This document shows positions 26,114 through 36,122 of a stretch of 47,014 nt of DNA, piece after piece (within the stretch, counting starts at the first letter, position 1; each line of letters starts with the position of its first letter). Below the pieces are notes generated by a model that saw only the letters and a program-made list of their open reading frames with translations, had not been told where the DNA came from and searched no databases. A program made the translations under genes and the position numbers. Source of the stretch: Agromyces binzhouensis (GTDB lineage: Bacteria; Actinomycetota; Actinomycetes; Actinomycetales; Microbacteriaceae); assembly GCF_004135055.1 (NCBI RefSeq), contig NZ_SDPL01000003.1, forward strand, positions 1 through 47,014, in the 5' to 3' direction.

Positions 26114-26155
26114 TCAGTTCACGAATCTGGGGAACGAGCTCGCGAACGTCGTCAT
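26114..26155 (-). other. 13-codon stub after the TmsA-like gene (lost methyltransferase start)
   Basis: The stop of the FAD oxidoreductase overlaps an ATG (ATGA) whose first codons ATGACGACG equal those of the methyltransferase gene at 22167. After MTT the frame diverges and stops at 26114. About 30 bases around this junction are identical to the tmsA-remnant/tmsB junction at 22.16 kb, so this marks where a downstream tmsB gene has been lost. Confidence 0.7.
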
Positions 26156-27543
26156 CGTCGTTGCACCGCCTTCGCGTAGAGGTCGAGGAACCGCGAGTCG
26201 GGGTCGTAACGCCGCTTCGCGGCGCGATAGGCATCGCCGCCGTAGAGCTCGTCGAACTCGTCGCGCGGGTAGAAGGAGTCGGAGTACAGCGACTTGTGTC
26301 CGTCGAGCTCGCTCACCTTGTGCTCGATCAGCCGGTTCGTCGCGCCCTCGGTCGCGCCGACGGGCACGGTCGACCAGAAGCCGACGTTGACGTAGGTGCG
26401 GTGCGGCTCGAGCGGGTACAGCGGCCAGTCGGCGTCGTCGCGCGGTCGCAGCGGGCACAGCCAGATCGGCTCGATCGGCACCTCGGCGAGGAACCAGTCG
26501 AGGAACTCCGCGGTCCGCTCGATCGGGATCTCGACGTCCTGGATGACCCGCTCACGCGGCGGACGGCCCCGGAGCCGTTCGATGCGGTTGCCGATGTCGA
26601 ACCGCCGTTCGAGCTTCATGAGCTTCCAGTACGCGCTGCTGCGCCGGTAGCGCCGCGGCCAGAGCCGGCGAACGAGCGGATGCTGCGCGCCGAACGCCTG
26701 CGAGCACCAGAACCAGTCGGCGTCCCACCGCCACAGGTAGTCGTGGATCGTGAGCCGGTCGTGCGTCGCGCCATCCGCATGCTGGATGGAGCGGTAGAAG
26801 ACGCGCTGGCCGGTGTAGTCGCTGGTGGGGCCGGATGCCTCGGTCTGCACGCCCACGCAGAGGTAGCTCTCGTCGGCGCTGAAGACGACCCCGTCGAGGT
26901 AGTCGACGCGGGTGCCGTCGTCGAGGGTGCCGGTCTCGACGATGCGGTCCATCGTGTCGATGAGGTCGGCGAGGGCATGGAACCGCAGGTGCGTGAGCGC
27001 GACGAACGGCTCGACGGGCTCCAACTCGATGCGCAGGCGCACGGCGTAGCCGAGCGTGCCGTAGGAATTCGGGAACGCGCGGAACAGGTCGGCGTGCTCC
27101 GACGGCGATGCGGTCACGACCTCGCCGGCGCCGGTGAGGATGTCGAGCTCCAGGACCGACTCGTGCGGCAACCCGCTGCGGAACGACGTCGACTCGATCC
27201 CGAGTCCCGTCACCGCGCCGCCGAGCGTGATGGTCTTCAACTGCGGCACCACCAGCGGGGCCAACCCGTGGGGCAGCGTCGCCGCGACGAGATCCTCGTA
27301 CGTGCACATGCCGGCCACGTCGGCCGTCCGCGCCTCCACGTCGACTGCGATGACCTGCGTCAGCCCCGACGTGTCCAGGCCCCGCGCCTCGACCCGGTCG
27401 CGCGACCGGAACAGGTTCGACGTGGGCTTGGCCAGCCGCACCGTCGCCGTGGCGGGCACGGCCCGGTAGCTCGCCAACAGGCGCTCCACGCCATCGGCGT
27501 GAGCGGCCCGTGCGTCAATCGCGTCGGTCGCAGGAGCGGACAC
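26152..27543 (-). CDS. FAD-binding oxidoreductase (TmsA-like, 10-methyl fatty acid synthesis)
   Basis: This is a 463-residue FAD_binding_4 (PCMH/DCR24-like) protein. The flavin-binding segment runs from about residue 60 to 165 (VDVEARTADVAGMCTYEDLV, PQLKTITLGGAVTGLGIES, FPNSYGTLGYAVRLRIELEP). A C-terminal substrate domain ends DSRFLDLYAKAVQRR. In mycobacteria and other actinobacteria such proteins reduce the 10-methylene acyl intermediate made by the partner methyltransferase, giving 10-methyl stearate-type lipids. The expected partner is absent just downstream (only a stub remains) but present at 20806-22167. The GTG start sits a few bases after a TAACGT hexamer, so the mRNA may be leaderless. 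Confidence 0.87.
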   Translation of the reverse strand: MSAPATDAIDARAAHADGVERLLASYRAVPATATVRLAKPTSNLFRSRDRVEARGLDTSGLTQVIAVDVEARTADVAGMCTYEDLVAATLPHGLAPLVVPQLKTITLGGAVTGLGIESTSFRSGLPHESVLELDILTGAGEVVTASPSEHADLFRAFPNSYGTLGYAVRLRIELEPVEPFVALTHLRFHALADLIDTMDRIVETGTLDDGTRVDYLDGVVFSADESYLCVGVQTEASGPTSDYTGQRVFYRSIQHADGATHDRLTIHDYLWRWDADWFWCSQAFGAQHPLVRRLWPRRYRRSSAYWKLMKLERRFDIGNRIERLRGRPPRERVIQDVEIPIERTAEFLDWFLAEVPIEPIWLCPLRPRDDADWPLYPLEPHRTYVNVGFWSTVPVGATEGATNRLIEHKVSELDGHKSLYSDSFYPRDEFDELYGGDAYRAAKRRYDPDSRFLDLYAKAVQRR

Positions 27544-27602
27544 ACCCTCACGTTAGACCCGAGGGCGGACTGCCCGCATGGTTCCTCCAACACTCGACAC
27601 GG
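27544..27602 (-). repeat. Upstream region of the TmsA-like gene, homologous to 22254-22310
   Basis: This is the promoter-proximal half of the duplicated tmsA upstream region. The block TGCCCGCATGGTTCCTCC is shared with the copy at 22.28 kb; the rest is about three-quarters alike by eye. It probably carries the promoter for the FAD oxidoreductase. Confidence 0.75.
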
Positions 27603-27644
27603 CCCTCCCACCCCACCCCGCGCAAGACATTCCGGCCGTGGTAG

Positions 27645-27871
27645 ATGCGCAACGAGGAGGACCAGTTCGACATACGCCATGGCTTCCTCGTCTTCGGCTG
27701 GTTTGAGTCGCCTAGCCTGAAGCCCTCACCGATCGGCTGCGCGAAGTCGAGGCGATCGTCGCCGTCGGACACCTTCTGCTCGCCGCGCCGGACCGGTTCG
27801 GCGCGGACTACGACGCACGCGTGCTCGAGTCGCGCCAGATGCAGGTCGCAGCGGCGGTGGACTTGCCATGA
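27645..27871 (+). pseudogene. C-terminal remnant of an LLM-class flavin oxidoreductase
   Basis: Two frame-shifted pieces resemble the last about 75 residues of the LLM oxidoreductase at 9045-10070. The first, RNEEDQF near 27648, matches RDESDQF. The second is an open stretch after a stop, from about 27716 to the TGA at 27869-27871, reading LREVEAIVAVGHLLLAAPDR then FGADYDARVLES. There is no start codon and most of the gene is missing. It lies just outside the defence island, between the TmsA-like gene's upstream region and the ClpC/KAP gene. The following 119 bases (27872-27990) show nothing recognisable. Confidence 0.8.
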
Positions 27872-27990
27872 GCGATGGCCAAATCAGTTGGCGCGGCGCT
27901 CGCGGGCATGCTCCGCGACGACTCAAGCGAGCGAAAGTCGAGCGCCAGACCTCCCTCTCTCACGCTGATCCGATGGAATCGTGACCGGGG

Positions 27991-30909
27991 TCAGCTATTC
28001 GAGGCGCCGACCGAATCCTCCGCGGCCACCGTTACCGAAGCCTCAGTGTCCGCCGCTCCCAACACATCACTACTCCGATCAGGCGCCGCTGAGGACAGCG
28101 GATGGCTGAGCAGCTGACGCCGAAGGGCACGCCGAGTGTTGCTATTGCCGACGCCCCGCAACAGGCTTACAAACCGCTCGTTGTTCGCGAGCGCGGGGTA
28201 GGACGCCGGCAGGGCTTCCTCGACCGAAGCGAGGTCGATGGTGACGTTGATGCCGGCAGCTCGTCGAGGAGGGGCCAGGCCCCGTCCGCGAAACAAGCGC
28301 CCGGCAATGCTCCACCAACGATCGTCGACTTCCGGCGTGTCTGAGGCCAGCTTTTTCACAGCCGCGTAATCGAGGAAGTCCCCGATCGGATCCTCACCAG
28401 AGGCATCGTTCACGAGCACATCGTAGAATGTGGGGTAGATATGCTGGACCAGAGTCGATGTGAAAACATGGCTGTGGTCGAGTGGCGCATCGTGCCATCT
28501 CGGATTGAGATTTGTCTCTAGAACAAAGCTATTGATGATTCGTTTGATTCGTCGTGGATTTCGAAGAGTATGCTCGGCCAACACTTCCATGATGTTCTCA
28601 TCCACCAATTGCGAGGTGGCCGACTCCTCTGCGTAGCCACGAATAAGTTGTCGAGTAGTCTCCATGCTGGGCGGGGGGACGCGATAAGTCACTTGTACGA
28701 TCTTCTCTAGATAGGCCCTCCCAATCTGAGATTCAGCGGCAACACCACTCGCAACGGCCTCGGCCACCCGCGACATGTCACAGGCGATAACAAAGACCAG
28801 GCCCGGCACATCGAGATACAGCTTCATCGCCTCACAGACCCCGACCACAGACAAGTCAGAACATCGATCGAGATCGTCTACAAAAACAACCATCGCACGA
28901 TTAGCTTGTCCACCCTTCGCGTCCGCCTCCACCCAATCCTCAAGCAGGCCTCCGATCGTCTGCCGCAATTCGTTGCGCAACTCGGGATTTACGCCAGCTT
29001 GGTCCCAAAGATTGTCAACCATGCGCCCGACGCCAAAGAAGTTGCCGAGGATGGCGCTGAAGATTCGAACAATCAAGGAAACGTGACCCTTTCGGGCAAG
29101 TTCACGAGTCCAGCGACGAAGAAGGAAGGGGTCCATCTTCACGAGAACCGATTTTACAAGGCTCTCAAGAGAGTTGGCCCCCGATGCGGTCCAAGCGTTG
29201 TATTCGACAGTGACAGTTCGTTCATCGCGAACATGCTCTTGTATCTGCCGAAGAAGGGTGCTCTTGCCAACACCCCAATTCCCGTCGATGGCTAGAACGA
29301 ACGGGGCGGAAGCTCGCGATGTGCTCAATATCGCTGCCAGCCGGGTCGCGATATCCCCGCTGCCGAGCAAGTCGCTCGTCCCAGCCGGTACGGGTTGATC
29401 GTTCAGGATCCTATACGCGTCCACTCCGGTCTTCCACTCGCCACGAGCCAGCCCCATGTGACGCTCCATCGCAACTTGCAGCCTTCGCTGCGCGATGCCT
29501 GTTCGCTCGGCAACGAGTTCGATGATGATTTGCTCATCCACGACAGCGTTTGCGATTCCCGAATCACCCCGGCGCCAGCGCTCCTCAGCCTCCTTCCGCG
29601 ACGCGATCATCGCACGCTCCTCGTCCCGATAGGCCGCTGCCTGCGAAAAGTCCTGGTCTTGGATCGCCCTCTCCTTCTGCTCTCTCAGATCGGAAATACG
29701 AGCCTCCAGGTCACGCAAGTCGCGCGGCATACCAGATCGCCGAAAGTCGACGATTGCGCACGCGCTATCAATTAGTCCGGCCACGGCGTCCAGCAGGTCC
29801 AGATCGCCCATAAACTGCTCGCCCAGAATGGCGGCGACTAGAACCGCGTTATCGGAGATGCTGACGTGGTTGTGAGCCTCATACTGGTCTCTCTGCGACT
29901 TGATATAGCCGACTGCATCGTCCACCGATGCCTCATCCATGGGCATCGACTCGAACCGGCGTCCGATGGCGTCCCCACGAACGTACTCGCGGTAGTCCTC
30001 CTCAGTCATTGCGGTTACGACTTGTACCGAGCCATCCATCAGACCCTCGCGAAGGCTCTTGGCCAGTTCCTTCAGCACCCCGTCTTGGCTCGTAAACAGG
30101 TGCACGAAGTCCGGAACGTGAAGAACTAATCCACCGCTCGTTCGCGCCGTCTCTATTGCATGGAGCAACTCGCCCTGACTCTGCGAGATCAGCGAGTGCG
30201 GCATTAGCTGATACAGGCCCCGTGCTGAAACCTCTCTCGGCACCTCGCCTTTCGCGATCATATCTGCCAATGCCATTGCCATCGAATTCGAGTCGACGCG
30301 ATTTTCTGCAATGAGCACAGCACTGTTTCGATCCCTGCGGCTGAGTATCGAGGCGATCTTCCTCACCACCCGAGCCTGGGTTCTCGGATACCACCCTTGC
30401 TCTGGCGAGCGCACTGTCGCAATTAGGTCAATCAGAGGTCCGCCGGCACTTCCCGGGGGCGGTGGTGCGCTGATTGAGTTCGCCAATAGAGCCTTCACAG
30501 CGCCCCGCGCTTCAACGAGGTCGACATCAAAGTGGCGCAGCACGCGCGCACCCGAGCTTTCATCCTCGCGCATCAGCCCCAATAGGATGTGCTCGGTCCC
30601 GATATAATTGTGTCCGAGATACAACGCTTCCCGGAGCGCAAGTTCGAGCGTCTTCTTCGCGCGCTTCGTGAAAGGCACCTGGTCGGGCGTTGGAGCTTCT
30701 CCAGGCGGGACCATTTCTCGTATCGCCGATCTTGCAGACTCGAGCGCGACCCCGAGATCGTTGAGCACCCGGGCCGCGACTCCTTGTCGTTCGTCAATGA
30801 GTCCCAGAAGAATGTGTTCTGTCCCAATATAGGGATGGTGCATCATTCTGGATTCTTCTTGAGCCAGTACGATGACGCGGCGAGCCCGGTCAGTGAATCG
30901 CTCGAACAA
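27991..30909 (-). CDS. ClpC-like N-domain/degenerate D1 fused to KAP P-loop NTPase
   Basis: This 972-residue protein has a composite layout. Residues 1-143 are two Clp-N repeats almost identical in pattern to actinobacterial ClpC (FERFTDRARRVIVLAQEES; HNYIGTEHILLGL twice in variant form). Residues about 160-480 align with the ClpC D1 ATPase and middle region (RVVRKIASILSRRDRNSAVL, RRFESMPMDEASVDDAVGYI, DFSQAAAYRDEERAMI). The D1 Walker A (GEPGVGKT in ClpC) has become ENRVDSNS and Walker B has become HVPDFVHL, so D1 cannot use ATP. In place of D2 there is a KAP-type NTPase, with Walker A GNWGVGKST at 543-551, Walker B VVFVDDLDR at 674-682, and the KAP-like YLEKIVQVTYRVPPP and NPRRIKRIINSF. A TTG start has GAGGAGG seven bases upstream. 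It lies downstream of the TIR gene and has low GC. It is probably a defence ATPase/scaffold; function unproven. Confidence 0.85.
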   Translation of the reverse strand: MFERFTDRARRVIVLAQEESRMMHHPYIGTEHILLGLIDERQGVAARVLNDLGVALESARSAIREMVPPGEAPTPDQVPFTKRAKKTLELALREALYLGHNYIGTEHILLGLMREDESSGARVLRHFDVDLVEARGAVKALLANSISAPPPPGSAGGPLIDLIATVRSPEQGWYPRTQARVVRKIASILSRRDRNSAVLIAENRVDSNSMAMALADMIAKGEVPREVSARGLYQLMPHSLISQSQGELLHAIETARTSGGLVLHVPDFVHLFTSQDGVLKELAKSLREGLMDGSVQVVTAMTEEDYREYVRGDAIGRRFESMPMDEASVDDAVGYIKSQRDQYEAHNHVSISDNAVLVAAILGEQFMGDLDLLDAVAGLIDSACAIVDFRRSGMPRDLRDLEARISDLREQKERAIQDQDFSQAAAYRDEERAMIASRKEAEERWRRGDSGIANAVVDEQIIIELVAERTGIAQRRLQVAMERHMGLARGEWKTGVDAYRILNDQPVPAGTSDLLGSGDIATRLAAILSTSRASAPFVLAIDGNWGVGKSTLLRQIQEHVRDERTVTVEYNAWTASGANSLESLVKSVLVKMDPFLLRRWTRELARKGHVSLIVRIFSAILGNFFGVGRMVDNLWDQAGVNPELRNELRQTIGGLLEDWVEADAKGGQANRAMVVFVDDLDRCSDLSVVGVCEAMKLYLDVPGLVFVIACDMSRVAEAVASGVAAESQIGRAYLEKIVQVTYRVPPPSMETTRQLIRGYAEESATSQLVDENIMEVLAEHTLRNPRRIKRIINSFVLETNLNPRWHDAPLDHSHVFTSTLVQHIYPTFYDVLVNDASGEDPIGDFLDYAAVKKLASDTPEVDDRWWSIAGRLFRGRGLAPPRRAAGINVTIDLASVEEALPASYPALANNERFVSLLRGVGNSNTRRALRRQLLSHPLSSAAPDRSSDVLGAADTEASVTVAAEDSVGASNS

Positions 30910-31344
30910 GAAACCGCCTCCTCTTCTCGACGCACGCTTCGTCGCCCTGGGCTGATGGGAGAGTCGTCGCTGGATCTATTCTGGAAGGTGCGTTCCGTTC
31001 TACTAGCGCATTGACGAGGCGATTTGAAGGAATGTTCCCTTGGCTCCGAGCCGCTCCGATGCTTGCCCGGTACTGCGTTCGCCGGCAGCGCGCCTCATTC
31101 GCGAACGCGCTTCGCGGCGCCCTCACGTCGTTCGCACGCTTTCGAGCTACTCAACGCGCATCTGCCCGAAATTCAACCGTCGTCGACAAGCCCGGCATTC
31201 TGCGAAGACTCGTTGCGGACGGATCGCCCGTTGGAGCGTAGGAAACGTGGCCCCCTCGTCCGCGCGGGCATGCATCGGCCGCCGCTAGCCAGGGCTCGCT
31301 CAAGACCAGGCTGGCCTCAAACAAGCGTTTCGTACGCCCGGCCC
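30910..31344 (-). other. 435-base gap between the ClpC/KAP and TIR genes
   Basis: No convincing gene, repeat or RNA was seen. Apart from the ribosome site of the ClpC/KAP gene at the left end (GAGGAGG), only arginine/serine-rich chance frames occur. The gap is long enough for a separate promoter for the ClpC/KAP gene, but no clear -35/-10 pair was identified. Confidence 0.5.
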
Positions 31345-32832
31345 TCACCAGAGCCGAGACCGGATATGCGCCGCTAGGTCGCCAACGCGGGATAGCGCTG
31401 CACTCGCACGGTCGGGGTCGCCACCGAAAAGACCGTGAAGCAGTGGAGTCCATCCAGCGCCCTGCGCCTTGACCTCCTCCAACATGGCCACCTCGGGGGC
31501 AATGTCACTATTCCGGTGCCGCCACGTGTACCGGCCGTAACCACCGTGCGGTCCGTAATACTCGCCCTGGGCGCGAGCGTCCTCCGATATCGCGTCGAGA
31601 AGGATCTCGACACGATCGAAAGCATCGGCGAAGTCAGCATCGCTCGCGAAATGCTGGCGGTAGATCGGTGCCATGACGGTGAAGAGGTGATCCGAAATAG
31701 GGGTGTGCCTGCGCCCGCCACGGGTTGAAACCATGGACTCGATCTGCTCGGCTGTGAGCGAACCACCGTCATCCTCGACACAAAGGAGCGTGCCGAGGGC
31801 ACTCCACGTATCGATACCGATCACGCTCTGGCTCCCCGAGGTGAGAACGAACGGTATCTGCCTGGCGCTTGTCGTCGCGACCCGGACATCGGAAGTCGCC
31901 GCACGGAGCATCGAGTAGTTCTGCTTCGCCACGGACCCGACGGCAGCCACGAATGTCGCCACGAGAGCGGGATACTCATGGGCCGACCTGAAGACTTGCG
32001 TCCCAGCTGACTGTGTGGACTCCTGTCCGAGGACACGTAACGTCTGCGTGAACTCCTGCTCATGCGGCTGCGATCCATACATGGAGATCAGCTTCAATGG
32101 GATCAGCGCCGGAGCGAGGATGTCGTCATAGTCCCGAATTCGGCGGACCCACTCCCGGGCGAACTCCGCGTTCAGTTTGGTTCCCTCGGCGACCGTCAAG
32201 GGAAACCGTTCGCGGTCGCCGAGTGCCCGCTGGATCGGTTCCCGCAGATCGGACAGAAACTCGTCATAGTCCATGACCAGTGTCGGGTTCCTCATCAGTC
32301 CACGTACGTGCTCAACTATGTCGCTCTGCGCGCGACCAGCATCTGCTGCCGCCAGGGAGACAGACTCCGGTGGGATCCCGGGGGCCGTACCGATGGCACG
32401 CTGGATGGCGACGATCAGGCGGCTCATCTGGGCAGTCTTCTGCGGCCCGAATAGATCGGCACGATGGATCGAACGGCCGAGGGTGCGTCCCGCTCCAAGA
32501 TCGAACTCGGGAATCTCGCACTCGTCAAGGCGAGCCGTCATGAGCCACGCCGCTCCAGGAGGTCTCTGACGGTACTCCTCGGCGGCCAGCGTGAGCTCCT
32601 CAAACTGGTACGACTTCTCCCTTTTTGCGAGGTTAGACGAGAAGCAAGCTAGGAAGACGAAGGAGCCGCTGCGAATGGCGTTCCGAATCTCAGTCTGCCA
32701 ATCATCGCCCGGCCAAAGCTTGTCCTTATCACGCCAGACGATGAACTCAGCCGCCTCAAGCGCATCCTGCAACTCGTCGATCTGTTCGCTGTCCTCGGTG
32801 ATGTACGAGATGAATACGTGGTCCCCTGACAC
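31345..32832 (-). CDS. TIR-domain protein with long uncharacterised C-terminus
   Basis: This 495-residue protein has an N-terminal TIR domain (residues about 5-145): HVFISYITEDSEQIDELQDA, the loop WRDKDKLWPGDDW, FVFLACFSSNL, and the putative catalytic Glu in KSYQFEE (about residue 78), the position used by NAD-cleaving TIR enzymes. Residues 150-495 are helical and match no family I recognise; they may sense a signal. A GTG start is used, with only a weak ribosome site. Bacterial TIR proteins in such contexts act as NAD-depleting effectors or make ADP-ribose signals after phage infection. It is on the same strand as the CBASS pair upstream and the ClpC/KAP gene downstream. Confidence 0.85.
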   Translation of the reverse strand: MSGDHVFISYITEDSEQIDELQDALEAAEFIVWRDKDKLWPGDDWQTEIRNAIRSGSFVFLACFSSNLAKREKSYQFEELTLAAEEYRQRPPGAAWLMTARLDECEIPEFDLGAGRTLGRSIHRADLFGPQKTAQMSRLIVAIQRAIGTAPGIPPESVSLAAADAGRAQSDIVEHVRGLMRNPTLVMDYDEFLSDLREPIQRALGDRERFPLTVAEGTKLNAEFAREWVRRIRDYDDILAPALIPLKLISMYGSQPHEQEFTQTLRVLGQESTQSAGTQVFRSAHEYPALVATFVAAVGSVAKQNYSMLRAATSDVRVATTSARQIPFVLTSGSQSVIGIDTWSALGTLLCVEDDGGSLTAEQIESMVSTRGGRRHTPISDHLFTVMAPIYRQHFASDADFADAFDRVEILLDAISEDARAQGEYYGPHGGYGRYTWRHRNSDIAPEVAMLEEVKAQGAGWTPLLHGLFGGDPDRASAALSRVGDLAAHIRSRLW

Positions 32833-32879
32833 GACGCCTAACCTATCGCGTAGGCGGCCAAGGGGGTGGTGAAACGGAG

Positions 32880-33224
32880 TTAGAGTTCAGCGGTTCGCCC
32901 ATTGCGCGGCAAGCGCGACTCGCTGTGACTAGCCCAAGGCGCGCGTCTGACAATTGAGGGCGCCCTGCGTGCCGGAGCTTCGGTGCTGAACGAACTACGA
33001 CGTTCCCCTCTTTGCATTCGAGCGACCTTCTTCGGCGGCAGCATGCACGAAACGCGATCACCCTCAGCAGACAGGTGCAGGTACTCCTCAAGACGGAGCG
33101 CTGGATAGCCAGGGGCTTCGTGCGGGCCGAAGTAGTGGCAGAGATCCCACTGCTCCACCGCATCGATCATGACGAACGCCGTGTTGTAAGCCTCAAAGCT
33201 TGAAGCGAAGTAGCTCTTGGGTTC
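32880..33224 (-). pseudogene. Possible gene remnant between Cap15-like and TIR genes
   Basis: An open minus-strand frame from the stop at 33225-33227 begins with protein-like sequence (SYFASSFEAYNTAFVMIDAV, then EQWDLCHYFGPHEAPGYPAL) and loses that character after about 75 codons, becoming Arg/Ser-rich. The only ATG (33170) has no ribosome site. It may be the leftover of a gene lost from the 472-base gap, or a small unannotated gene. No family is recognised. Nothing else was seen in 32833-33304. Confidence 0.35.
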
Positions 33225-33304
33225 TCAGTTAGTCATGCTCTTAGAGTCTCGGCATGAGCGCACTCGCCATTAGGGAGCGAGGTCTTCACGTCATGCGCGA
33301 GCGA

Positions 33305-33931
33305 CTAACGTGCACCCTTCAAAGCCTCTCTAGCTTCCTCGAAGTCCTCAGCGATCTTCTTGGATCGCTTTGTCAGCTTCAGTTGGCCCTTCGAGTCTCG
33401 ATCCGTCCAGTAGCCGCCTTCCAGTCGCTTCACAGGAGAGCCGGTAACTGCCAGCACGGCTGACCCATGGTGGATTGGGCTGCGCCCTCGGATTTCCAGA
33501 CGCGGTTCGTTCGTGTAGACATAATGAAGAAGCCACGAACCGTCTTCCTTCACAACGCGCGCCAAAGAGGATTTTGACTTGGACTCGTTAGATATGAGTG
33601 TTACGGAGGCCGTCGAACTGGTCTGACGGATCACAAGATACACAGTCTTCGGTGCGGGCGACTTACCGGAGTTCGGGTCAATCCAGAATGATTCGAGGCG
33701 CGCTTGCCATGTTCCGCTGAGGTCTCGACTTACACCTGGGATTGCCTGCGCTACCTTCCACTTCCAGACCCACCGGTCCCATGTCAAGAGCAGGATCGTG
33801 CACGCGAGAACCGCGATCGAGAACAAGCTGAGCAGACTCGTATTGGGCGCGCCGGTAGTAACCCACGAACCTATTACAAACACCGCCGAGACGATGACGA
33901 CAATCGCACGGACGAGGATGCCGCTGATCAT
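33305..33931 (-). CDS. cap15: Cap15-like CBASS membrane effector (two TM helices plus beta-barrel)
   Basis: This 208-residue protein starts with two transmembrane helices (about residues 4-24, ILVRAIVVIVSAVFVIG, and 32-51, SLLSLFSIAVLACTILLL). A soluble beta-rich domain beginning LSGTWQARLES follows. This is the layout of Cap15, the CBASS effector whose beta-barrel binds a cyclic dinucleotide and whose oligomers disrupt the inner membrane to kill the infected cell. The ATG at 33931 overlaps the stop of the CD-NTase gene (ATGA), so effector and synthase are translationally coupled. Identification rests on topology, size, the GTW strand and the neighbour, not on alignment. Confidence 0.75.
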   Translation of the reverse strand: MISGILVRAIVVIVSAVFVIGSWVTTGAPNTSLLSLFSIAVLACTILLLTWDRWVWKWKVAQAIPGVSRDLSGTWQARLESFWIDPNSGKSPAPKTVYLVIRQTSSTASVTLISNESKSKSSLARVVKEDGSWLLHYVYTNEPRLEIRGRSPIHHGSAVLAVTGSPVKRLEGGYWTDRDSKGQLKLTKRSKKIAEDFEEAREALKGAR

Positions 33932-34818
33932 TCGAACCCCATGTAGTCCCAAGCGTCGCCTGCAAACTTGTGGACCTGAGCTCGAGTCCATTTCTGAGCG
34001 TGGTGAAACAGGTACTTTGCTCCGTTTGCCTCCAGCCAGCGATCCGAGTCCGGCTCAGCCCGCATGGTGTAGTTGTAGATGTCTGCGAGGCACCCCTGCA
34101 TCGTTGCTCGCCAAGTACTAAGCGAGAAGTACTCTTCCCGGCAGTTGTACACCAAGCATTCGAGTAGATAGGACGGGATCTCTTCAGTGAGTCCCTTCGA
34201 CACAAGCTCGTTCTCCAAGCGCTTCAAGATGCGAACAGTCTTCTTGTACAGGCCGTTCGTGCGCACGTTCTTGGCCTTGCCGAGTTCGAGCTGAAGCTTC
34301 GGGTAGTTCACGATGGACGTTCCGTCCTTCTTGAAAACCTTGGTCCCCTGGCGGTATGTGCCGTCGGAAAAGTAGAGCTTATAAGCGAAGGAGGGCACTA
34401 CGTCGGCGTTGACGCGTGCCGAGCTCGCATCAACTTCGAAAGCCGTCGACCCTGCGGTGACGGAACCAGGAAACTTCTTCTCGAGAGCAGCGGCGATCTC
34501 CTCCCTGAGCTTCTCGGGCGTCCACGGACCGGTGTAGGGAGTGCTTCCGGAAGGGCGTCCGCTCTTCGCGGGATCGTGTTCTTCCCAGTACAAGGCGTCC
34601 GAGCACTCGACGACGATGTCAACGTCGCTGTCCGACTTGACGTTCGTGTTATTGGCGTATGAACCCTTGGCGTAGATTGAGAAGTCGCTTCTGTAACCGT
34701 CGAATCCATCGTGCTCGTCTATGGCTTCGCGAATCATGCGCTCAGTGCGTTCCTGCTTTTCTTGCTCAGTTGCGCTTGAGGGCCCGGTCCACCCGGCCAA
34801 CTTCTCTTCAGTAACCAT
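33928..34818 (-). CDS. CD-NTase (CBASS cyclic-oligonucleotide synthase)
   Basis: This is a nucleotidyltransferase of about 296 residues of the cGAS/DncV-like type. The polymerase-beta core is clear: GS at 52-53 (KGSYANNTNVKSDSDVDIVV), the metal-binding Asp pair at 65 and 67, and a third Asp at about 139 (RVNADVVPS). The C-terminal helical part (KNVRTNGLYKKTVRILKRLE and LLECLVYNC) fits the family. On infection it would make a cyclic di- or trinucleotide that activates the overlapping Cap15-like gene. The ATG at 34818 has AAAGGAG four bases upstream and is preferred over the GTG at 34833. No Cap2/Cap3 or HORMA/TRIP13 genes are present, making this a minimal type I CBASS. The clade and product cannot be read directly. 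Confidence 0.87.
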   Translation of the reverse strand: MVTEEKLAGWTGPSSATEQEKQERTERMIREAIDEHDGFDGYRSDFSIYAKGSYANNTNVKSDSDVDIVVECSDALYWEEHDPAKSGRPSGSTPYTGPWTPEKLREEIAAALEKKFPGSVTAGSTAFEVDASSARVNADVVPSFAYKLYFSDGTYRQGTKVFKKDGTSIVNYPKLQLELGKAKNVRTNGLYKKTVRILKRLENELVSKGLTEEIPSYLLECLVYNCREEYFSLSTWRATMQGCLADIYNYTMRAEPDSDRWLEANGAKYLFHHAQKWTRAQVHKFAGDAWDYMGFE

Positions 34819-35054
34819 GCGACTCCTTTGCACTGATCATCCTCGTTCAGCACGAACGGACAGACAACCTCGCTGGCCGGATCCGGCGACGCGACATCCG
34901 GCCAAGATGGTGTCGGTTGATTCGGCTTATCCCAAGGAATCCGTGCCATCTAGGCCGTCTCCTAGCGACCAGGTGTGAATCCCAGTGTTCCCGTGGCCAA
35001 GCACCTCGATCTGGGTCAAGACACGGAATCGGGTCAACTTCGATGTGTCCGAGG

Positions 35055-35068
35055 GTCACTACCGTGAC
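35055..35068 (-). terminator. Short hairpin downstream of nrdF
   Basis: GTCAC-TACC-GTGAC lies 14 bases after the nrdF stop. The stem is only 5 bp and there is no T-tract, so this is a weak terminator candidate. A second GC-rich inverted repeat (GGCCGGA at 34875-34881 and TCCGGCC at 34897-34903) lies nearer the CBASS start. No clear promoter was identified in 34819-35081. Confidence 0.3.
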
Positions 35069-35081
35069 GTTTCCCGGGAGA

Positions 35082-36122
<1,041 letters not shown>

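Follow-up and report, generated by a model that had tools for sequence, protein, structure and literature searches.

The integrated-decoy concept of immune receptors is known from plant NLRs. For bacteria, published accounts describe that Gp53 of phage SPO1 binds ClpC of Bacillus and competes there with MecA, that the NLR-type protein bNACHT25 senses phage via the chaperone DnaJ, and that RdrA of the RADAR system is a ring-forming AAA+ ATPase. Here we describe a gene which joins the front half of ClpC to a KAP NTPase, and no description of such a ClpC-KAP fusion was found in the open-licence PMC literature.

The window (the whole stretch of 47,014 nucleotides from Agromyces binzhouensis that was analysed) carries this gene on the minus strand at 27991-30909. 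It codes for a protein of 972 aa, starts with TTG and is preceded, 7 bases upstream on the same strand, by AAGAGGAGG (30917-30925), which resembles a ribosome-binding site. That the front half of ClpC is fused to a KAP NTPase had already been claimed in the initial annotation and is confirmed by Pfam and phmmer. Pfam finds two Clp_N stretches, AAA_lid_9 (residues 328-429), UVR (403-433) and KAP_NTPase (520-797, 6.8e-40), the latter with a profile score of 137.6 bits against a curated cut-off of 20. Residues 1-481 align to ClpC1 (8a8u) at 5.9e-97, through the D1-D2 linker, so that the match to ClpC is far beyond chance.

All domains are given on the minus strand. The N-domain, with two Clp_N repeats (30472-30909, residues 1-146; based on Pfam, superposition and site alignment), is followed by a decayed large D1 (AAA1) subdomain (29929-30384, about residues 176-327; phmmer, identity and invariant positions). 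Then come the D1 lid and a UVR-type M-domain (29569-29928, residues 328-447; Pfam, phmmer and alignment) and a remnant of the ClpC D1-D2 linker (29425-29568, about residues 448-495; phmmer alignment). The second AAA+ motor of ClpC (D2) is absent, and the KAP domain stands in its place from about residue 496 (KAP half 28090-29424, residues 496-940; Pfam, PADLOC and structure model).

The ClpC-KAP fusion is rare and scattered. A KAP-profile search of genome contigs confirmed 261 relatives, the best 80 of which were retained. When 85 frames were compared with host ClpC by BLAST, ClpC halves were found in five, from Kribbella steppae, Mycolicibacterium vulneris, Amycolatopsis vancoresmycina, Sinomonas atrocyanea and a plasmid of Streptomyces sp. 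NBC_00829, while the other 80 KAP frames, on the basis of the best 80 of the 261 relatives, are devoid of a ClpC half. Two further fusions occur among 297 genomes of the Amycolatopsis family, one complete (genome G1357) and one with its N-domain out of frame (G1334), which brings the total to eight with the window copy included. In that scan 22 genomes matched, and in 19 of them the open frames, at most 786 aa long, are too short for a fusion. Among the matches listed at the thresholds used, no further fusion was found in 100 relatives or in 396 genomes of the phylum, nor, among the matches listed, in the Mycolicibacterium family (151 genomes), the Sinomonas family (197) or the Kribbella order (293). 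The family of the window, Microbacteriaceae, gave no second fusion in 398 genomes at E 1e-40. With a single KAP protein as query, neither genome contigs nor viral contigs yielded a relative; an alignment query turned up three viral KAP loci, all of them weak and lacking a ClpC half, and a phage search gave two weak KAP matches. In genome G1357, which carries a fusion, the two ClpC genes (L193 and L194) show no difference across the 520 residues that were compared.

KAP also occurs as a stand-alone protein in Streptomyces and Amycolatopsis, with a receiver-like domain at its C-terminal end (for example L036:8995-10740), and these proteins look like a conserved chromosomal family. A REC-like gene beside the Mycolicibacterium fusion was considered as a split-off receiver of such proteins, with no significant BLASTP match. 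At the fusion loci examined, neither a partner gene nor a conserved neighbourhood was seen. A conserved operon was rejected, the neighbours of the other fusions being mostly without a Pfam family match.

Conservation differs strongly along the ClpC half of the window fusion. The actinobacterial ClpCs compared reach at best 61% identity with its N-domain and 31% with its large D1, against 43% for the D1 lid and 45% for the M-domain, and ClpC-invariant positions are retained in 79 of 120 cases in the N-domain and in 34 of 120 in the large D1. The initial statement that this region follows ClpC D1 closely is thus too strong; that it is unrelated to ClpC D1 is excluded by phmmer and by the identity comparison with ClpC. 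In the alignment, the D1 Walker A position (30286-30309, minus strand, residues 201-208) reads AENRVDSN for GEPGVGKT. The Walker B position (30100-30123, minus strand, residues 263-270) reads LHVPDFVH, with a P inserted, the catalytic Glu lost and the Asp arguably retained. Both motifs had been correctly recognised as degenerate, only their register (given as ENRVDSNS and HVPDFVHL) had to be corrected. At the site of the lost D1 pore loop 1 (30175-30180, minus strand), six ClpC residues are missing between residues 244 and 245 of the protein. The Arg-finger pair RR is still present.

Comparison of the eight fusions puts these losses into perspective. Two fusions, those of Streptomyces and Mycolicibacterium, have the D1 Walker A GEPGVGKT unchanged, and it is altered in the six others (GEPGVGAT, SEPGVGAT, SEPGISAT, GEPGINKH, GEPGVGKN and the AENRVDSN of the window). 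Walker B is retained in 7 of 8 and altered only in the window copy. The YRG of pore loop 1 is missing in all eight, including the Mycolicibacterium fusion, which retains FEER directly after the lost YRG. Only 10 of 60 pore loop 1 cells are retained in six fusions, versus 34.8 expected by chance, and none of 100,000 shuffles was as low. D1 decay increases with distance from ClpC. The initial annotation had called D1 catalytically dead and had named homologues with intact Walker motifs as evidence against this. A dead D1 probably applies to the window copy and, to differing degrees, to five others, but it is not a family-wide property, as such intact motifs do occur (Walker A in two, Walker B in seven of the eight). 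Judged from the alignments, the loss shared across the fusions is that of pore loop 1 and not of Walker A, and the fusion can be described as a motor without grip but with handles.

The full structure model has a mean pLDDT of 75.5 and a pTM of 0.47. Large D1 is weak in it, with blocks of residues 181-330 at pLDDT 53-76, and the proposal that D1 is structurally kept receives only moderate support from these values. The N-domain is modelled firmly and superposes at Z 22-24 on ClpC1 N-domain structures, which include complexes with cyclomarin, rufomycin, ecumicin, lassomycin and phospho-arginine. Modelled alone, the KAP half reaches a mean pLDDT of 88.4. Among solved folds, RdrA of RADAR comes nearest to it (Z 18.0 over 331 residues, rmsd 5.4, 13% identity), by a small margin to Orc2 (Z 16.2); the matches after RdrA are Orc/Cdc6 proteins and then, at lower scores, CED-4 and plant NRC resistosomes. 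This would fit a ring- or wheel-forming NTPase, though it is not proof of one. The best PADLOC match of the KAP part is PifA (2.7e-30, with only 5-314 of 720 matched), followed by QatA. The KAP Walker A GNWGVGKST (29257-29283) and Walker B VVFVDDLDRC (28861-28890, both on the minus strand) are intact by alignment, as had been claimed, and KAP Walkers are intact in all eight fusions. The idea that ATP use has moved to the KAP domain would fit these motifs. The most hydrophobic segment of the protein lies between the KAP Walkers (29017-29085, minus strand, about residues 609-631), with a Kyte-Doolittle mean of 1.74 over 19 residues from residue 610 and low pLDDT at 621-640. Many KAP members have transmembrane helices inserted in the P-loop domain; a membrane role of this segment is uncertain. 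No enzymatic effector domain was recognised in the fusion protein.

The two halves of the gene have different histories. In a KAP tree with six of the eight fusions, their KAP halves form one clade (support 100/97). Holding the ClpC halves as one clade is rejected by the AU test, with p 0.0018 for four fusions and 0.00085 for five, as is holding the Mycolicibacterium ClpC half together with the two Pseudonocardiaceae halves (p 0.00015). In a denser tree the Mycolicibacterium half falls inside mycobacterial ClpC (100/99). The two Pseudonocardiaceae halves are sisters (100/100) and group with Pseudonocardiaceae ClpC at 94/94, just short of the support mark. The Streptomyces half joins Streptomyces ClpC at 81/74 in the four-fusion tree and falls into an open fork in the better-sampled tree, as does the Kribbella half. 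The ClpC halves of the window and of Sinomonas are too diverged for placement, and in a first tree that included both the window joined Kribbella, which was flagged as a long-branch join. Both were omitted from the AU-test trees, together with two ClpC-like paralogues and several near-identical ClpCs, and a long-branch artefact from these two rows was thereby rejected.

Base composition was compared across the junction of six fusions. The Streptomyces and Mycolicibacterium fusion genes, the two most host-like ones, are GC3 mosaics, with 0.831 and 0.785 in the ClpC half and 0.633 and 0.616 in the KAP half, respectively; in the other four GC3 is nearly flat or mildly different. With a single clade of KAP halves, ClpC halves that do not group together and two mosaic genes, the simplest account would be that one KAP lineage has repeatedly captured host-family ClpC, or been converted back to it, with D1 decay following afterwards.

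We counted how often the fusions keep residues by which ClpC binds its ligands and maintains its resting state. Eleven sites from two papers were chosen ahead of counting and mapped onto actinobacterial ClpC. F2, F80 and E89 are ligand-site residues of the ClpC N-domain (PMC10030653), and T7, R9, E32, K85, E106, D356, E359 and F436 are binding or anchor sites of S. aureus ClpC (PMC12583610). The partners T426, R122, E435 and N462 were excluded, as they differ in host ClpC or fall outside. The null consists of region-matched draws from ClpC-invariant positions, which corrects for ClpC ancestry within regions only. Six fusions and 29 ClpC rows were used, without the later found G1334 and G1357 fusions; the M-domain Phe is not invariant across all 29 rows, and about 58 residues are absent from the N-terminus of the Amycolatopsis host row (L119).

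The window fusion retains all 11 sites versus 7.0 by chance (p 0.006). Its N-domain keeps F2, T6, R8, E31, F80, K85, E89 and E106, and residue 421 is the M-domain F equivalent to S. aureus F436. The four decayed fusions retain 43 of 44 cells (30.2 +/- 3.7 by chance, p 1e-5), or 42 of 44 since retention of the Amycolatopsis E106 depends on the alignment (it is a gap in a later one), and the six fusions together 63 of 66 (49.7 by chance, p 0.0002). T6 and R8 are lost in the Mycolicibacterium fusion. F2, F80, K85 and E89 are retained in all seven fusions with an N-domain in frame, and the resting-state sites (T6, R8 and K85 of the N-domain, the acidic pair of D1, the M-domain Phe) are largely retained. 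Sites for phospho-arginine, adaptor and cyclic-peptide binding and for the resting state are thus kept above chance. As a counterpoint, any ClpC-derived domain starts out with these binding residues. The Amycolatopsis fusion has lost most of the second Clp_N repeat. In the G1334 fusion (L190:2559-5142) the open frame is directly preceded by a Clp_N motif in a different frame, which leaves the N-domain there broken or truncated; two of the eight fusions (Amycolatopsis and G1334) therefore do not have a complete N-domain.

The window copy lies in an island of 58-63% GC, compared with about 70%, between a FAD-type oxidoreductase gene and nrdF. This interval (26152-36101) is variable within the genus. 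In addition to the fusion gene, it contains a TIR-domain protein gene (31345-32832, minus strand), the C-terminal part of which matches PADLOC PDC-S65 (4e-24) and which is possibly a separate defence gene. It also contains a CBASS pair (33305-34833, minus strand) of overlapping genes, a CD-NTase (33928-34833, 4.4e-121) and Cap15 (33305-33991; 1.2e-76 to the 2TM effector, 8.8e-16 to Pfam Cap15_CD_rec). The TIR gene was considered as an obligate partner of the fusion and rejected, as no TIR gene occurs among the neighbours listed at the other fusion loci (L190 and L191 excluded). Eight relatives were fetched, and in five of them the two flanking genes are the same and enclose between them 1.5-5.2 kb. 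None of the island genes of the window lies in these five intervals, and three of the intervals have PADLOC matches to ThsA/ThsB (Thoeris), NsnA and PDC-S59. Since the same flanks enclose differing defence matches in relatives, the oxidoreductase-nrdF interval is a defence hotspot.

The reading that we favour, and to which we give an even chance, is that the ClpC front half, derived from the host, serves a defence-type KAP NTPase as a built-in bait or sensor. A decoy or guard function had been suggested initially, and it gains support because binding and anchor residues are selectively retained, because ClpC halves group with host-family ClpCs while the KAP halves are one clade, and because the gene sits in a defence hotspot. 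The ClpC half would bind ligands of host ClpC, which may be phage adaptor-like proteins, cyclic peptide antibiotics, or phospho-arginine or adaptor-bound proteins; alternatively, it may pack on host ClpC via the M-domain and sense changes in the state of ClpC. A ligand would break the contacts between N-domain and D1/M that keep the protein off, the KAP half would then use NTP and oligomerise like its fold relatives, and its action might finally stop growth or the phage. Each step has precedent, because SPO1 Gp53 acts on ClpC and bNACHT25 uses DnaJ.

The host matching of the ClpC halves could be selected mimicry or neutral recombination. In the neutral case, one old fusion would have shared about 1.4 kb of homology with the clpC of each host, and recombination could have overwritten its ClpC half without any selection for mimicry, the rest being decay. 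This would explain why the KAP halves are monophyletic and the ClpC halves polyphyletic, why two genes are GC3 mosaics, and why D1 decay rises with distance from ClpC. However, neutral conversion alone would restore pore loop 1, and the two most host-like halves are without YRG; nor would unselected decay spare binding and anchor residues. Selection is favoured because the pore-loop loss is consistent and the binding face retained. Gene conversion would thus explain the origin of host matching but not the upkeep of the module, and we rank it as the least probable of the four explanations weighed. Hardly more probable is that the N-domain soaks up ClpC-targeting cyclic peptides of neighbouring actinomycetes, with KAP serving only for assembly or stability. 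The cyclic-peptide contacts F2, F80, K85 and E89 retained in the seven in-frame fusions agree with this, and ClpC2 sequesters cyclomarin and protects M. smegmatis (PMC10030653). But ClpC2, as described there, works in large excess and without an NTPase, while the KAP Walkers are intact in every fusion. The M-domain and D1 lid are retained as well, and so are E31 and E106, which have no cyclic-peptide contact according to PMC12583610.

Ranking next to the favoured reading, but still unlikely, is a regulator of ClpC: the fusion would co-assemble with host ClpC via M-domain and anchors and either keep it in its resting state or push it out of that state, and KAP would act as an energy switch without any immune role. 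The N-domain anchors, D1 acidic pair and M-domain Phe of the resting state (sites from PMC12583610) are largely retained, and the need to fit host ClpC would itself yield host matching. Against it stand the patchy presence, with no second fusion in the 398 genomes of the window's family at the above threshold, the position of the window copy in a defence hotspot, and a KAP half that resembles PifA, QatA and RdrA.

If the bait or sensor reading is true, bacteria carry immune NTPases with a copy of a core chaperone as sensor, and they refresh this copy from the genome of the host while the target evolves. This would point to ClpC being regularly attacked by actinophages or competitor peptides; through the fusion, unknown anti-ClpC factors would become accessible to genetics, and a single gene would suffice to test the guard/decoy idea in bacteria. 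Should this reading fail, the fusion still represents a case in which the regulatory face of ClpC has been naturally separated from its motor.

Compared with ClpC, an Hsp100 AAA+ unfoldase, the window fusion has a homologous N-domain, D1 lid, M-domain and linker over residues 1-481, and differs by the lost D1 Walker A and pore loop 1 and by a KAP NTPase for D2. From the features of a ClpC unfoldase, the two-repeat N-domain with its ligand sites and the M-domain are present, and working Walker motifs in D1, the pore loop 1 YRG and D2 are missing. With PifA (phage exclusion) and QatA (Qat) it shares a KAP domain with intact Walkers, but it has a ClpC half in front, the PifA model is matched only in part, and the island genes scanned (TIR, Cap15 and CD-NTase) match other families and include no qatBCD partner. 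RdrA is the nearest solved fold of the KAP half, but at the low identity given above, and no RdrB-like gene is among the same island genes. The nearest stand-alone relatives of the KAP half, among the best 80 of 261, are the KAP-receiver proteins of Streptomyces and Amycolatopsis at about 36-42% identity; these have no ClpC half, and their receiver-like domain is weak in Pfam (L036, 6e-4, below the cut-off) or, in others, seen by eye.

ClpC2, the mycobacterial decoy of ClpC1, is likewise a ClpC N-domain copy that retains the ligand site, but in PMC10030653 this domain is described without an NTPase or M-domain, whereas the fusion has N-domain, D1, M-domain and KAP in one chain. The predicted vWA-MoxR conflict systems also use Clp N-domains as modules, but there the ClpN repeats are fused to vWA and, going by PMC7159879, apparently have neither a D1 nor an M-domain beside them. 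One of the two hallmarks of an integrated decoy, a host target protein copied and joined to an immune NTPase, is found in the sequence; the other would be that the decoy binds a pathogen factor and triggers immunity. We propose, tentatively and with more doubt than for the bait or sensor reading as such, that the fusion may be a bacterial counterpart of the integrated-decoy receptors of plants: an immune NTPase lineage would repeatedly re-capture the front half of host ClpC, with the threading loop disabled and the binding face retained, so that phage proteins or toxins which attack ClpC trip the alarm.
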